From NCBI GenBank assembly GCA_019635965.1, contig JAHBYK010000001.1, positions 1 through 64,000 of the forward strand: a stretch of 64,000 nt of DNA. Reading direction: 5' to 3'. A program made the position numbers and the translations under genes. Positions 12,932 to 40,053 of the stretch are shown in pieces; position 1 is the stretch's first letter, and every line of letters begins with the position of its first letter. Source of the DNA: Parvibaculum sp. Lineage in GTDB: Bacteria; Pseudomonadota; Alphaproteobacteria; Parvibaculales; Parvibaculaceae. The notes under the pieces were generated by a model, which saw only the letters and a program-made list of their open reading frames with translations, ran no database searches and was not told where the DNA came from.

Positions 12932-14224
12932 ATGACAGAGGCCGCCTACCACCGCGAAAGATGCACCGGCAAGAGCCGCGCCTTTGGCGCTTTCGAGTGG
13001 CTGCTCGCCATGCGCTATCTGCGCTCGCGCCGCCGCGAAGGCATCGTCTCCGTCATTGCCATCATCTCCTTCCTCGGCATCATGCTGGGCGTTGCCACGC
13101 TCATCATCGTCATGTCGGTGATGAACGGTTTTCGCACAGAGCTTCTCTCGCGCATCCTCGGCATCAATGGCCACATGTATGTGCAGGGCATCGGCGTCAA
13201 CATCACCGATTACGACACGCTCGCCGCCGAATTGCGCAATGTGCCGGGCATCACCGCCGTCTCGCCGCTGGTCGACGGTCAGGTCATGGTGCAAAGCCCC
13301 TATAATGCCGGCGGCGCGCTGGTGCGCGGCATGCGCGAGGCTGATCTGAAGTCGATGCCGCTTCTCGCAGACAACATCAAGGAAGGCTCGCTCGACGGGC
13401 TCGATGAGTTTGGCGGCGTCGCTGTCGGTTCGCGCATGGCGCAGAATCTCGGTCTCAATCTCGGCGACAACATCACGCTCCTCTCGCCGCGCGGTGCGAT
13501 CACACCCTTCGGCACGGCGCCGAAGGTCGGCGCCTTTGAAATCCGCGCCATCTTCGAGCTTGGCATGTCTGAGTATGATGCGAGCTTCGTCTTCATGCCG
13601 CTCGATGAGGCGCGCATGTTCTTCCGCACCAATGAAGGCGTGAGCGCGCTTGAAATCCGCGTGACGAACCCCGACCGCATCAATGATTTCGTCGCCCGCG
13701 TGGCCAATGCGGCAGGCCCCTGCTGTCAGGTCACCACATGGCAGCAGCGCCACGAAAGTTTCTTCTCCGCCCTTCAGGTGGAGCGGAACGTGATGTTCCT
13801 CATCCTCACGCTCATCCTCATCGTCGCCTCGCTCAACATCATCTCCGGCCTCGTCATGCTGGTGAAGGACAAGGGCAGGGACATTGCGGTCCTGCGTACC
13901 ATGGGTGCCACGCGCGGCGCCGTCATGCGCGCCTTCTTCATCTCCGGCGCCTCGATCGGCGTCATGGGTACGATCGCCGGCTTCCTTCTCGGCCTCGTCT
14001 TCTGCCTCAACATCGAGACGCTCCGCCAATGGCTGTCGAGCCTTTCCGGCACGGAGCTTTTCTCGCCGGAAGTCTATTTCCTGAGCCGTATGCCGGCGGA
14101 GGTCGATCCGGGCGAAGTCACCGCCGTCGTGCTGATGGCGCTTTTCCTCTCCTTCGCGGCCACGCTCTATCCCGCCTGGCGCGCCGCCTCGCTCGATCCG
14201 GTGGAGGCGCTTCGCTATGAGTGA
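12932..14224 (+). CDS. lolC: Lipoprotein-releasing ABC transporter permease LolC/E
   Basis: Membrane subunit of the LolCDE-type complex that extracts lipoproteins from the inner membrane and hands them to LolA. The 430-residue protein has one N-terminal helix after the motif [17 protein letters not shown], a large periplasmic domain (about 65-280) and three C-terminal helices, with ending [11 protein letters not shown]. Only one such permease gene is present, so it likely forms a homodimer (sometimes called LolF). It overlaps lolD by 8 bases. The first 20 residues are not conserved in the family, so the start could be slightly further in. Confidence 0.93.
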
Positions 14225-14945
14225 TTATGCCTATGACGAAATGCCGGTCCTGAGCCTGCGCGGCATCACCCGCACCTACATGCAGGGCGAGGAGGAGCTG
14301 CGGATCTTCGCAGGCGCCGATCTCGATGTCTGGCGGGGCGAGATCGTCGCGCTGGTCGGTCCCTCCGGCGCAGGCAAGTCCTCGCTGCTGCATATTGCGG
14401 GTCTTCTTGAAGCGCCGAATGCCGGTCAGGTCTGGATCGGCGGCCGCGATTGCGTGGCCCTTTCGGATGCGCGCCGCACCGCTGTCCGGCGCTCCGAAGT
14501 CGGCTTCGTCTACCAGTTCCACAATCTCCTGCCCGAATTCTCGGCCGTGGAAAATGTCATCCTGCCGCAGATGATCGCGGGCGTGTCCCGCCGCGAAGCG
14601 CATGGCCATGCGATGGACCTGCTTGGCCGCATGGGCCTTGCCCAGCGGGCGGAGCACCGCCCGGCGGAGCTGTCCGGCGGCGAGCAGCAGCGCGTCGCCA
14701 TTGCCCGTGCGCTTGCCAATCACCCCGGCATCCTTCTCGCCGACGAGCCGACCGGCAATCTCGACCCCAAGACCGCCCGCATGGTCTTTGGCGAGCTCAT
14801 GAACATCTGCCGCTCGGAAGGGGTCGCCGCCATCATTGCGACCCACAATCTCGACCTCGCAAGCCACATGGACCGGGTCGTCCTGCTCCATGAAGGCATC
14901 CTCCACGAAGGCACCGATCTCGCCGCGGCATATCAGAGCCTTTAG
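14217..14945 (+). CDS. lolD: Lipoprotein-releasing ABC transporter ATPase
   Basis: ATPase that powers LolC/E. The 242-residue ABC protein has Walker A GPSGAGKS (48-55), a Q-loop ([12 protein letters not shown]), the ABC signature [16 protein letters not shown], Walker [13 protein letters not shown] and the H-loop (IIATHN). [15 protein letters not shown] is typical of the LolD/MacB subfamily. It overlaps lolC by 8 bases, showing translational coupling. Confidence 0.96.
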
Positions 14946-15039
14946 GGGATATTTTCCCGTTCCGTGCCCCGCATTTTTCAATCGTCCCTGCTTCGGCCCC
15001 CATTGACAGACGAGAACAAAAAGGCAACTCTCCGAACCA

Positions 15040-15054
15040 GAACATTTCACGAAC
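15040..15054. promoter_or_regulatory. LexA (SOS) box upstream of the 45-aa protein and dnaE
   Basis: The sequence GAACATTTCACGAAC is GAAC-N7-GAAC, the reverse complement of the GTTC-N7-GTTC box known for alphaproteobacterial LexA. It sits 20 bases before the ATG of a small membrane protein and downstream of a TTGACA (15003-15008). The AACTCT at -10 spacing is weak. The same pattern occurs at the lexA promoter in this window, which supports its use. Confidence 0.65.
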
Positions 15055-15073
15055 ATATCTGGAGGGCTTCGAT

Positions 15074-15211
15074 ATGCGTGCGATCTGGAACAGGGCTTCG
15101 GAGGGTGAGGCGCGGGAATGGGTGAAGGATGTGGCGGGGCTCGTCTCCATCGCCGCCTTCCTCTGGGCCACCACCGCCTGGCTCCATATTGCCGAGGTCA
15201 TGGTCGGCTGA
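15074..15211 (+). CDS. 45-aa single-pass membrane protein, probably SOS-regulated
   Basis: A 45-codon frame with a strong GGAGG Shine-Dalgarno 8 bases before the ATG. The product starts MRAIWNRASEGEAREWVKD, a charged N-terminal part, and then has one hydrophobic helix at about 20-44 (VAGLVSIAAFLWATTAWLHI). It is not recognised as a named family. The LexA box just upstream suggests induction by DNA damage. Caulobacter SidA, a 29-residue SOS-induced inner-membrane division inhibitor, is similar in size, topology and regulation, but no homology is claimed. dnaE starts 114 bases downstream and may share the transcript. Confidence 0.65.
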   Translation: MRAIWNRASEGEAREWVKDVAGLVSIAAFLWATTAWLHIAEVMVG

Positions 15212-15325
15212 GGCGGCAGGGCAAAGAGCGGAGATAGATCGGATTCCGCTCCGTGAAGCGGGTTCTCCACAGGAATCATGCGGCGCTGGCCGTGACTCCG
15301 CGCCGTCGCCGCCCGACAATGACGC

Positions 15326-18300
15326 ATGGCCGACTCGATGCCGCAGTTCATCCATCTCCGTCTCCATTCCGCCTATTCGCTGCTCGAAGGCGCGATACGG
15401 ATCAAGGAGATCCCCAAGCTCTGCAAGGCCGACGGCATGCCTGCGGTGGCGCTCACCGACACTGGCAACCTTTTCGGCGCATTGGAGTTTTCCGAGGTTT
15501 TGGCCGAAGCGGGCATCCAGCCCATTACCGGCTGCACGCTTCCCATCCGCCTCGATGAGCCCGAGGAGCCCTCGCGCGGCCCCGCCCGCCGCGACCCGCA
15601 TGGCGTTCTTGCCCTTCTGGTGAAGGACGAGCAGGGTTACGCCAACCTCATGAAGCTCTCGAGCCTCGCCTTTCTCGAGCCCGAAGCGGGCGAGGCGGCG
15701 CATGTTTCGCTCGCCCGCCTCGCACAATATGGTGAGGGCCTCATCTGCCTCACCGGCGGGCCTGACGGCGTCGTGAACCGGCTTCTCGAACAGGGCCAGA
15801 AGGACGCGGCCGAGGCCCTTCTCCTCAAGCTGAAGTCGATTTTCGGTGACCGCCTCTATGTCGAGTTGCAGCGTCACGACATGCCTGCCGAGCGCCAGAC
15901 GGAAGGCCCGCTGGTCGATTTCGCCTATGCCCATGACATTCCGCTCGTCGCCACCAACGAACCATATTTCACGACGGAAGAAGAATATGAGGCGCATGAC
16001 GCGCTGATCTGCATTGCAGGCGGCGCCTATGTCGTGCAGGCCGACCGCCGCCGCCTCACGCCCGAGCACCGCTTCAAGTCGCAGGCGGAAATGCTGGCGC
16101 TCTTTGCCGATCTGCCGGAAGCGACCGCGAACACCATCGAGATCGCGCGCCGCTGCGCCTTTCGCCCGCGCACCCGCAAGCCCATCCTGCCGAAATTCGC
16201 CGCCGGCACTTCCGAAGCCGATGAGCTTCGCCGTCAGGCCCATGAAGGCCTGACCGCGCGCCTCGCGTCGCAGGACGCTGTCGCGCCTGAGGAGGAATAC
16301 CGCAAGCGTCTCGATTTCGAGCTTGATGTCATCATCAAGATGGAATTCCCCGGCTACTTCCTCATCGTTGCCGACTTCATCAAATGGGCGAAGGCGCATG
16401 ACATTCCGGTCGGGCCGGGCCGTGGTTCGGGTGCCGGCTCCGTCGTTGCCTGGGCGCTTACCATCACCGACCTCGATCCGCTCCGCTTCGGCCTCCTCTT
16501 CGAGCGCTTCCTCAATCCTGAGCGCGTCTCGATGCCGGACTTCGATATCGACTTCTGTCAGGACCGCCGCGATGAGGTGATCCGCTATGTGCAGTCCCGC
16601 TACGGCTATGAGCAGGTCGCGCAGATCATCACCTTCGGAAAACTTCAGGCCCGCGCCGTGCTGCGCGATGTCGGCCGCGTCCTGCAAATGCCCTATGGCC
16701 AGGTTGACCGCCTCTGCAAGATGGTGCCGAACAATCCGGCCAACCCCGTTACGCTCGCCCAGGCGATCGAAGGCGAGCCGCGCCTTCAGGAGGAGCAGCG
16801 CAACGACGAGACCGTCGCCCGCCTTCTCGAAATCGGCGGCCGCCTCGAAGGGCTCTACCGTCACGCCTCGACCCATGCCGCAGGCGTCGTGATCGGCGAC
16901 CGCCCGCTCGATGAGATTGTGCCGCTCTATCGCGATCCGCGCTCCGACATGCCCGTCACCCAGTTCAACATGAAATGGGTTGAGCCGGCCGGCCTCGTGA
17001 AGTTCGACTTTCTCGGCCTCAAGACGCTCACTGTGCTTGACCGCGCGGTGAAGCTCGTTGCCCGCCGCGATATTCAGGTCGACCTGCTGCAACTGCCGCT
17101 CGAGGACAAGAAAACCTTCGACATGCTTGGCCGCGGCGAAACGGTCGGCGTGTTCCAGCTTGAAAGTTCGGGTATGCGCGATGTGCTGCGCAAGCTCGAG
17201 GCCGACCGTTTCGAGGACATCATCGCCCTTGTGGCGCTTTATCGTCCCGGCCCGATGGACAACATCCCGTCCTATATCCGCCGCAAGCATGGGCAGGAGA
17301 AGCCTGACTATCTGCACCCGATGCTCGAACCTGTCCTGAAGGAGACGCACGGCGTCATCATCTATCAGGAACAGGTGATGCAGATCGCGCAGATCCTGTC
17401 CGGCTATTCGCTCGGCGAAGCCGATCTTCTCCGCCGTGCCATGGGCAAGAAGATCAAGGCCGAGATGGAAGCGCAGAAGGAACGCTTCGTCACCGGCGCC
17501 GTTGCCAAAGGTGTCGACAAGGCGCAGGCCGCGAGCATCTTCGAGCTGGTGGACAAGTTCGCGGGCTATGGCTTCAACAAGTCCCATGCCGCGGCCTATG
17601 CGCTCGTCGCCTATCAGACGGCATGGCTCAAGGCGAACCATCCGGTCGAGTTCCTCGCAGCCTCGATGAGTCTCGATCTCGGCAATACCGACAAGCTCGG
17701 CATCTTCAAGCAGGAGGCGGAACGCCTCGGCATCAAGGTGCGTCCGCCCTGCGTCAATCGCTCCGAGGCGCTATTCGGCGTTGCCGATGGTGAAATCCTC
17801 TATGCGCTCGCCGCCATCAAGAATGTCGGCTTGCAGGCCATGGAACATATCGTCGAGGTCCGCCGGGAAGGCGGCCCCTTCCGCGACCTGTTCGATTTCG
17901 CCCGCCGCATCAATCCGCGCATGGTCAACAAGCGTGCGCTCGAAAATCTCGCCCGCGCCGGCGCCTTCGATGCGTTGAACCCCAACCGGGCGCAGGTGCT
18001 CGCCTCCGTCGACATGATGCTCGGCACGGCCAATGCCGCGATCCGTGAGCAGGAGAGCCAGCAGGGTGGTCTCTTTGGCGATGATCCGGGCGTTGCGTCC
18101 TCGGGTCCGCAGCTCCCGGCCGCCGATCCCTGGATGCCGATGCAGCGCCTGACCGAAGAATTCAACGCCGTCGGATTCTATCTCTCCGGCCATCCGCTCG
18201 ATGATTACCAGACCGACCTGAAGCGGGCGGGCGTCGTCACCTATGCCGAGCTTCTCGCGCGCGGCAATCGGGCCGAGCTTGTCGCGGGCACCGTCACCGC

Positions 18301-18745
18301 GCTCCAGCAGCGCAAGTCGAAGAAGGGCAACCCCTTCGCCTTCCTCAGCCTCTCCGATCCGACCGGCCAGTTCGAGCTGGTTGTCTTCTCCGAAGCCCTG
18401 TCGCAGTTCCGCAGCCTCATGGAGCCGGGCAATGCCATCGTGATCGGCGTCGAGATCGACCGTATGGGGGACGAGGTCAAACTTCGTGCCCAGTCCGTCC
18501 GCTCCGTCGATGAGGTCGTGAAGGATACCGGTGCGGGGCTCCGCATCTTCATCGACGATGCCGCGCCGCTCGCCACCGTGAAGTCGCGCCTGACCGAAAA
18601 GGGCAAGGGTCTCGTTTCGCTCGTCCTGATGGGCGAGGGGGGCAGGGAGGTCGAGCTGCGTTTGAAGGACCGTTACCGGGTGACGCCGCAGATCCGCGGC
18701 GCGATCAAGTCGGTCCCCGGCGTGGTCGACATCCGCGAAATATGA
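15326..18745 (+). CDS. dnaE: DNA polymerase III subunit alpha
   Basis: The replicative polymerase catalytic subunit. The 1139-residue protein has an N-terminal PHP domain (FIHLRLHSAYSLLEGA), the polymerase core with catalytic aspartates 405, 407 and 409 in MPDFDIDFCQDRR (E. coli Asp401/403), a helix-hairpin-helix region (SHAAAYALVAYQTAWLKANH) and a C-terminal OB fold. Length and features match DnaE1 rather than the mutasome DnaE2. A second ATG four codons on is also possible. An SOS box lies about 270 bases upstream, in front of the small membrane protein, so some damage-linked transcription of dnaE is conceivable. Confidence 0.96.
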   Translation: MADSMPQFIHLRLHSAYSLLEGAIRIKEIPKLCKADGMPAVALTDTGNLFGALEFSEVLAEAGIQPITGCTLPIRLDEPEEPSRGPARRDPHGVLALLVKDEQGYANLMKLSSLAFLEPEAGEAAHVSLARLAQYGEGLICLTGGPDGVVNRLLEQGQKDAAEALLLKLKSIFGDRLYVELQRHDMPAERQTEGPLVDFAYAHDIPLVATNEPYFTTEEEYEAHDALICIAGGAYVVQADRRRLTPEHRFKSQAEMLALFADLPEATANTIEIARRCAFRPRTRKPILPKFAAGTSEADELRRQAHEGLTARLASQDAVAPEEEYRKRLDFELDVIIKMEFPGYFLIVADFIKWAKAHDIPVGPGRGSGAGSVVAWALTITDLDPLRFGLLFERFLNPERVSMPDFDIDFCQDRRDEVIRYVQSRYGYEQVAQIITFGKLQARAVLRDVGRVLQMPYGQVDRLCKMVPNNPANPVTLAQAIEGEPRLQEEQRNDETVARLLEIGGRLEGLYRHASTHAAGVVIGDRPLDEIVPLYRDPRSDMPVTQFNMKWVEPAGLVKFDFLGLKTLTVLDRAVKLVARRDIQVDLLQLPLEDKKTFDMLGRGETVGVFQLESSGMRDVLRKLEADRFEDIIALVALYRPGPMDNIPSYIRRKHGQEKPDYLHPMLEPVLKETHGVIIYQEQVMQIAQILSGYSLGEADLLRRAMGKKIKAEMEAQKERFVTGAVAKGVDKAQAASIFELVDKFAGYGFNKSHAAAYALVAYQTAWLKANHPVEFLAASMSLDLGNTDKLGIFKQEAERLGIKVRPPCVNRSEALFGVADGEILYALAAIKNVGLQAMEHIVEVRREGGPFRDLFDFARRINPRMVNKRALENLARAGAFDALNPNRAQVLASVDMMLGTANAAIREQESQQGGLFGDDPGVASSGPQLPAADPWMPMQRLTEEFNAVGFYLSGHPLDDYQTDLKRAGVVTYAELLARGNRAELVAGTVTALQQRKSKKGNPFAFLSLSDPTGQFELVVFSEALSQFRSLMEPGNAIVIGVEIDRMGDEVKLRAQSVRSVDEVVKDTGAGLRIFIDDAAPLATVKSRLTEKGKGLVSLVLMGEGGREVELRLKDRYRVTPQIRGAIKSVPGVVDIREI

Positions 18746-39236: not shown

Positions 39237-39950
39237 TCAATAGCGGCGCAGAAGCCCCACCAGCTTGCCCTGAACCTTGACGCGATCAGGGCCGAAGATA
39301 CGCGTCTCATAGGCGGGGTTCGCCGCTTCGAGCGCAATCGAATCGCCTTTCTTGCGCAGGCGTTTCAGCGTTGCTTCATAGCCATCGACAAGCGCGACGA
39401 CGATGTCGCCGCTCTGCGCCGTATCGCACCGCTGGATGAGAACGGTATCGCCATCGAGGATACCGGCCTCGATCATCGAGTCGCCTTTCACTTCGAGCGC
39501 ATAATGTTCGCCGGAGCCGAGCAGAGTCAGCGGCACACTGACCTGATGGCTTTCTTCCTGCAATGCTTCTATCGGCGTACCGGCTGCGATCCGGCCCATC
39601 ACGGAAATCGTCATGGATTCACCGCTATCCCGCGAGGGAGCGAGATCGCGGCTCGAAGGCTTCGCTTGCGCACCGCCTTCAATGACACTGGGCGAGAACC
39701 CGCGTCCCCGCGACACCGCAAGACTAGGCGAGGCAGCTTCAGGCAGTTTCAGAATTTCGAGTGCTCGGGCGCGATGCGGCAGACGGCGGATAAAGCCCCG
39801 CTCCTCAAGCGCGGTGATGAGCCTGTGAATGCCCGACTTCGAGCGCAAATCGAGCGCTTCCTTCATTTCATCGAAGCTGGGGGAAACGCCGCCTTCCTTG
39901 ATCCGCTCATGAATGAACATCAGCAGTTCGTGTTGCTTGCGTGTCAGCAT
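39237..39950 (-). CDS. lexA: LexA repressor
   Basis: Represses SOS genes and self-cleaves when RecA filaments form. The 237-residue protein has a winged helix-turn-helix ([20 protein letters not shown], then [20 protein letters not shown]), a long variable hinge (70-112), the cleavage site Ala123-Gly124 in MGRIAAGTP, and the catalytic Ser158 (KGDSM) and Lys196 (EATLKRL). The length is normal for alphaproteobacteria, whose hinge is longer than in E. coli. Autoregulation is shown by a LexA box in its promoter. A hairpin at 39969-39986 (ATCGCCC-GCAA-GGGCGAT) lies just upstream of its Shine-Dalgarno. Confidence 0.97.
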
Positions 39951-40023: not shown

Positions 40024-40053
40024 GTTCTAGTTTAGTTCTCGTGAATCTGTCAA
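40024..40053 (-). promoter_or_regulatory. lexA promoter with LexA (SOS) box
   Basis: On the minus strand, TTGACA (40053-40048) is followed at 17-18 bases by CTAGAAC as -10 region. Overlapping it is GAACTAAACTAGAAC (40038-40024), exactly GAAC-N7-GAAC, the alphaproteobacterial LexA box. Binding would cover the -10, giving classical negative autoregulation. The transcript would start about 70 bases before the lexA ATG. Confidence 0.85.

Follow-up and report, generated by a model that had tools for sequence, protein, structure and literature searches.

What is encoded by the short reading frame between lolD and dnaE in a Parvibaculum genome, and why does it stand behind what looks like an operator for LexA? 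The locus lies in a 64,000-nucleotide stretch of Parvibaculum sp. (contig JAHBYK010000001.1 of assembly GCA_019635965.1, positions 1 to 64,000; here called the window), taken from a draft assembly of 2.48 Mb that is 75% complete. We consider it likely that the frame encodes a diverged, LexA-controlled membrane protein of the type of SidA, the Caulobacter protein known from textbooks as an SOS inhibitor of division, and that this protein would inhibit FtsW-dependent septation, holding division during DNA repair. The reading frame is under selection, its operator and promoter are conserved, and it shares both its place on the chromosome and sequence homology with SidA. The elements of the locus are as follows.

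14217..14945, + strand: lolD (PF00005), upstream neighbor and synteny anchor
15003..15008, + strand: −35 element TTGACA of the putative SOS promoter
15014..15028, + strand: upstream LexA box, degenerate, GAACAAAAAGGCAAC, with one mismatch against GAAC-N7-GAAC
15040..15054, + strand: main LexA box GAACATTTCACGAAC, an exact match to GAAC-N7-GAAC
15061..15065, + strand: Shine–Dalgarno GGAGG, read from the sequence, 8 nt 5′ of the ATG
15074..15211, + strand: sidA-like gene, ATG to TGA, 45 residues (MRAIWNRASEGEAREWVKDVAGLVSIAAFLWATTAWLHIAEVMVG), with a conserved frame and a match to the SidA profile
15326..18745, + strand: dnaE, replicative DNA polymerase III alpha (PF07733/PF17657/PF02811), downstream neighbor

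The original prediction, made from the letters of this DNA, had placed the main box, GGAGG, and a 45-codon frame between lolD and dnaE, and all of these are present there; position 15003, which it gave as the start of the region, is where the conserved −35 TTGACA begins. The degenerate box lies between the −35 and the presumed −10 element, 26 bp 5′ of the main one. The protein has a polar N-terminus and the core WVKDVAGLVSIAAFLWATTAW, and it is predicted to be a single-pass inner-membrane protein, with one hydrophobic stretch in the hydropathy plot (Kyte–Doolittle 17-residue maximum 1.64). From its stop codon to the ATG of dnaE there are 114 nt, in which we looked for, and did not find, a terminator-like or promoter-like site. 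As separate observations, TTCTCCACAG occurs in this gap at 15263–15272, and a DnaA-box-like TTNTCCACA[GT] lies within 420 nt 3′ of the small gene in 16/23 of the genus loci scanned.

An unconserved frame without a synonymous pattern of change, the outcome that the original prediction had named as speaking against it, is not what the genus reveals. Of 27 genomes sampled, 24 have the locus assembled (in G042 the sidA-like gene is cut by the contig end) and 23 have promoters that could be aligned; the frame and the LexA box are both kept in 24/24. The other three (G005, G012, and G020) have no match to the peptide and none to the N-terminus of dnaE, a double absence that fits missing sequence in drafts. 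Substitutions at codon positions 1, 2, and 3 number 29, 14, and 71, and the ratio of nonsynonymous to synonymous change (pN/pS) over nine disjoint genome pairs is 0.22; the peptide is therefore under purifying selection. The promoter is conserved as well: TTGAC[AG] is invariant in 23/23 of the aligned promoters, at a near-fixed distance to the boxes, and is followed directly by the upstream box, which is full in some relatives (e.g., GAACAAAAGAGGAAC) and has one half-site decayed in others, with the second box about 26 bp beyond the first. GGAGGG is also kept in many of the genus relatives.

Taken by itself, the box carries little weight, and we dismissed it as evidence on its own because its frequency is near chance: GAAC-N7-GAAC is seen 3 times in the window against an expected 1.9 ± 1.3; over the whole 2.48-Mb genome its count is 63, and that of the reversed control pattern is 50. 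We accept it as real because it is conserved in the relatives, not because the pattern is rare.

The connection to SidA comes from the Caulobacter locus itself. The N-terminus of Caulobacter DnaE served as bait only, the evidence being the named Caulobacterales dnaE records so fetched. In Caulobacter vibrioides DSM 9893 and OR37 a 29-residue open reading frame (ORF) of the pattern MIR[VI]ARES[FL]ALVSV[IV]GFVWMMC[TS]VA[NQ]LVA lies directly 5′ of dnaE, behind the LexA box GAACATCTTGTGAAC; the C. vibrioides ORF scores 72.4 bits against NCBIfam NF033228, “cell division inhibitor SidA,” whose cut-off is 35. SidA, according to published work (PMC4211646), is an inhibitor of 29 residues in the inner membrane; it is SOS-induced and interacts with FtsW. 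Its gene is CCNA_02004 (PMC10769358). Orthologs of 29–30 residues are found 5′ of dnaE across most of the fetched Caulobacteraceae loci.

Compared with hhalign, the profile of the 23 Parvibaculum peptides and that of 25 SidA sequences from Caulobacteraceae match with a probability of 92% and an E-value of 6e-7 over 25 columns. A hidden Markov model (HMM) built from Caulobacteraceae SidA only was run on 689 distinct transmembrane-like small ORFs from other loci; 28 dnaE-upstream ORFs from outside the Caulobacteraceae come out above every decoy, and the window ORF is among those 28 (10.9 bits, E 0.0098). When the window peptide was shuffled 1000 times with its hydropathy pattern kept, no shuffle reached its score on the SidA profile; in the reverse test, on the Parvibaculum profile, 0/1000 shuffles reached the score of Caulobacter SidA. 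We also searched 387 whole genomes with a profile of the combined family. At E ≤ 1e-5 it has 26 matches, every one of them at or near dnaE, and some are in genomes that had no part in the profile (G043, G152, G219, G274, G230, and G148). The core common to SidA and the Parvibaculum peptides is [WRF]-x-[KRQ]-[DE]-x2-[AS]-[LF]-x-S-[VILC]-x2-F-x-W.

The two are alike in the LexA box 5′ of the gene, in standing directly 5′ of dnaE, and in the conserved core [KR][DE]-x2-AL-x-S-[VI]-x2-F-x-W; SidA is a small single-helix membrane protein, and the window protein is predicted to be one. They differ in length (29 residues in SidA, 45 with an N-terminal extension in the window protein), in the tryptophan at the start of the helix and a second one in the core of the window protein, where SidA has MMC, and in the spacing of the operators, which are 26 bp apart here and 17–18 bp apart where tandem in Caulobacteraceae; only SidA fits the curated model. 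The original prediction had drawn an analogy to SidA without claiming homology. The likeness holds, and the relation goes further than analogy, with a shared chromosomal place and detectable homology. Its central suggestion, an SOS-controlled membrane checkpoint protein like SidA, gains support from the conserved frame, the conserved operator, the place of sidA, and the homology. “Possibly undescribed,” its other suggestion, is true of this branch, which is not annotated, and not of the type, which is already known as SidA.

Several points weigh against this interpretation. The window protein is 16 residues longer than SidA, by way of its N-terminal extension; it has no match to the curated NF033228 even at E 10; the pure Caulobacteraceae SidA profile, run on the window's own whole genome, does not retrieve it; and position 31 of FtsW, to which we return below, has changed to G in this genome and varies among genus members. 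Within the genus, 2/23 members match NF033228 weakly (best E 0.007), and a number of sister genomes do yield the ORF to the pure Caulobacteraceae profile, with E-values as low as 2.7e-5. The link between the window ORF and SidA depends on the genus profile and on intermediates. Because it is missed both by the curated model and by the profile in its own genome, we call the gene sidA-like and not a SidA equivalog; in the broad sense it appears SidA-like by its core homology, its place 5′ of dnaE, and the LexA operator sequence in its promoter. Searches with Pfam, NCBIfam, PADLOC, and PDB profiles gave no match to the window ORF, and PHROGs gave weak matches only (E 0.028 and 0.07). Elsewhere in the window, a DUF1467 membrane protein (PF07330, 6982–7266) has a tail with a weak, below-cut-off match to CrgA and a weak match to the SidA profile, both probably due to chance.

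How would such a protein act? LexA would sit on two operators, one between the −35 and −10 elements and one just 3′ of the presumed start site. On DNA damage, RecA-driven cleavage of LexA would free the promoter, and the peptide would be made at once from its good ribosome-binding site, insert into the inner membrane with the predicted single-pass topology, and block septal synthesis by FtsW/FtsI/FtsN, arresting division. FtsW is the candidate target; for SidA, a placement against TM7 of FtsW has been predicted (PMC13396833). In Caulobacter, the FtsW substitutions F145L and A246T relieve inhibition by both SidA and a second inhibitor, DidA, and A31K relieves that by SidA and not that by DidA (PMC4211646). 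The FtsW of the window genome is 51% identical to that of Caulobacter, with F145 and A246 conserved.

An SOS membrane peptide with a SidA-like role and another target, reaching division arrest by way of FtsN, FtsI, or some other route, is unlikely, though the most probable of the alternatives. DidA acts via FtsN, a protein with which SidA, too, interacts in two-hybrid tests (PMC4211646); residue 31 of FtsW, the inhibitor-specific site, is not conserved, and the N-terminal extension of the peptide is new. Against this stand the conserved core, in which the peptide is homologous to SidA, and the two conserved residues of FtsW, F145 and A246. DidA is a small, single-pass, damage-induced division inhibitor, as the window protein is predicted to be, but it has 71 aa, is SOS-independent (controlled by DriD), and binds FtsN (PMC4211646), and its promoter logic is another one. 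For the SOS-induced membrane inhibitors of Gram-positive bacteria, YneA, SosA, and ChiZ, the septal synthase FtsW is likewise the presumed site of action (PMC13396833); SosA differs in its 77 aa and extracellular C-terminus (PMC6851548) and YneA in its LysM domain (PMC13396833), and we saw no sequence relation between any of the three and the window protein.

A membrane-depolarizing peptide that favors dormancy, not a specific inhibitor of division, is also conceivable, and we regard it as very improbable. The models for it would be TisB and DinQ of E. coli, short SOS-induced membrane peptides which belong to type I toxin–antitoxin genes with an antisense RNA; TisB has a single helix. DinQ is likewise a short, SOS-induced, single-helix membrane peptide (PMC3567139). 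No Rfam match was found at 14700–15600 on either strand at E ≤ 1, and so no known antitoxin RNA, a novel RNA still being possible. Homology and synteny both point to SidA and not to type I toxins, and a good ribosome-binding site stands close to the start codon, which again speaks against a peptide of the depolarizing kind.

Read-through into dnaE, as the original prediction had proposed, is possible because the 114-nt gap has no terminator-like site, and it is not essential to the unit because dnaE is distant in two relatives and absent beside the gene in another genome. In G013 (L010/L033) and G009 (L016/L026), dnaE is about 1.5–1.9 kb from the sidA-like gene, and the unit therefore has no need of an adjoining dnaE. 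In G222 (family f111, locus L366), the SidA-like ORF MQIWLKDTLALVSLFALTWMGMAWIAVLDLT comes directly after lolD, with TTGACA and a one-mismatch LexA box 5′ of it and no dnaE downstream. It is very improbable that the frame serves merely as a leader peptide, or as a means of read-through, by which dnaE would be put under SOS control: the gap without a terminator-like or promoter-like site, and a LexA control of dnaE that may recur in the nine families described below, speak for it, but the purifying selection at the protein level and the loci in which dnaE is distant or not beside the gene speak against it.

A similar arrangement is found well beyond the genus. We drew 174 genomes evenly from 79 families of the class Alphaproteobacteria and scanned the 600 nt 5′ of dnaE. 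GAAC-N7-GAAC is present in 35/174 genomes, from 14 families, against 0–5 genomes/174 for scrambled or mis-spaced control patterns, and in 13 of the 14 box families (13/79 sampled) the box is followed by a membrane ORF of 29–47 residues. The ORFs of families f1, f4, f55, f61, f106, and f150 clearly resemble SidA or the Parvibaculum peptides; the similarity is moderate in f5, f70, and f111, and one-sided in f49, where it extends to the Parvibaculum profile only. In families f36, f102, and f108, box and membrane ORF are present with no significant similarity (39–545/1000 shuffles reach the score), and the peptides of these three may be diverged homologs or may be unrelated ones that occupy the same position. 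We claim neither these three nor f49 as homologs. One further candidate, the ORF behind the box in G376 (f30), was dismissed, its frame reading like the C-terminus of lolD.

Current models recover very little of this. NF033228 is above its cut-off in 1/387 of the sampled alphaproteobacterial genomes. A Brevundimonas ORF (L288), in the same place and with LexA boxes in tandem before it, falls short of the cut-off of 35 at 23.9 bits, on which basis the curated model looks too narrow. Our literature search, which covered open-licence papers only, found no report of SidA outside Caulobacter, to which the discussion is confined. The window gene is part of a class-wide pattern missed by current annotation, which suggests that the SidA checkpoint is older and more widespread than that annotation implies. 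More tentatively, and with slightly less than even confidence, we propose that SidA is an SOS checkpoint of ancient origin in the Alphaproteobacteria, one that had become fixed in the lolD–dnaE gap before several orders split and whose peptide has evolved too fast for curated models to follow beyond Caulobacter and its close relatives; its promoter may also feed dnaE, coupling division arrest with polymerase supply. If all of the dnaE-upstream units were SidA, an SOS checkpoint would have gone largely unannotated in a whole class, and natural variants of the peptide and of FtsW would offer a direct way to map the contact between them. As a practical rule for finding such very short checkpoint genes, one should look for a LexA box in the lolD–dnaE gap.

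A different pattern was seen at dnaE in nine other families, in which there is no sidA-like ORF: GTTC-N7-GTTC lies within 120 nt 5′ of the dnaE match, in many cases with TGAC after it, against 0–3 families for the controls (loci L153, L154, L155, L085, L190, L197, L200, L203, L205, and L235). To judge by the motif, dnaE itself may be under LexA control in those families.

Finally, the presumed repressor and other putative members of its regulon are found in the same genome. The original prediction had noted the box at lexA, and it is indeed there:

39237..39950, − strand: lexA, presumed repressor (TIGR00498, 171 bits, cut-off 111)
40024..40038, − strand: LexA box GAACTAAACTAGAAC 5′ of lexA, by pattern match

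In front of lexA, CTTGACA comes first and the box after it, as in the layout of the sidA-like promoter, and imuA of the window genome has a box of the same kind 15 nt before its start. At another locus (L322, genome G000, contig C101), GAACAAAATAGGAAC lies 67 nt 5′ of an ORF whose translation (MLTSIELCAGAGGQALGLEMAGF...) resembles a DNA cytosine methyltransferase, possibly an SOS-regulated methylase.
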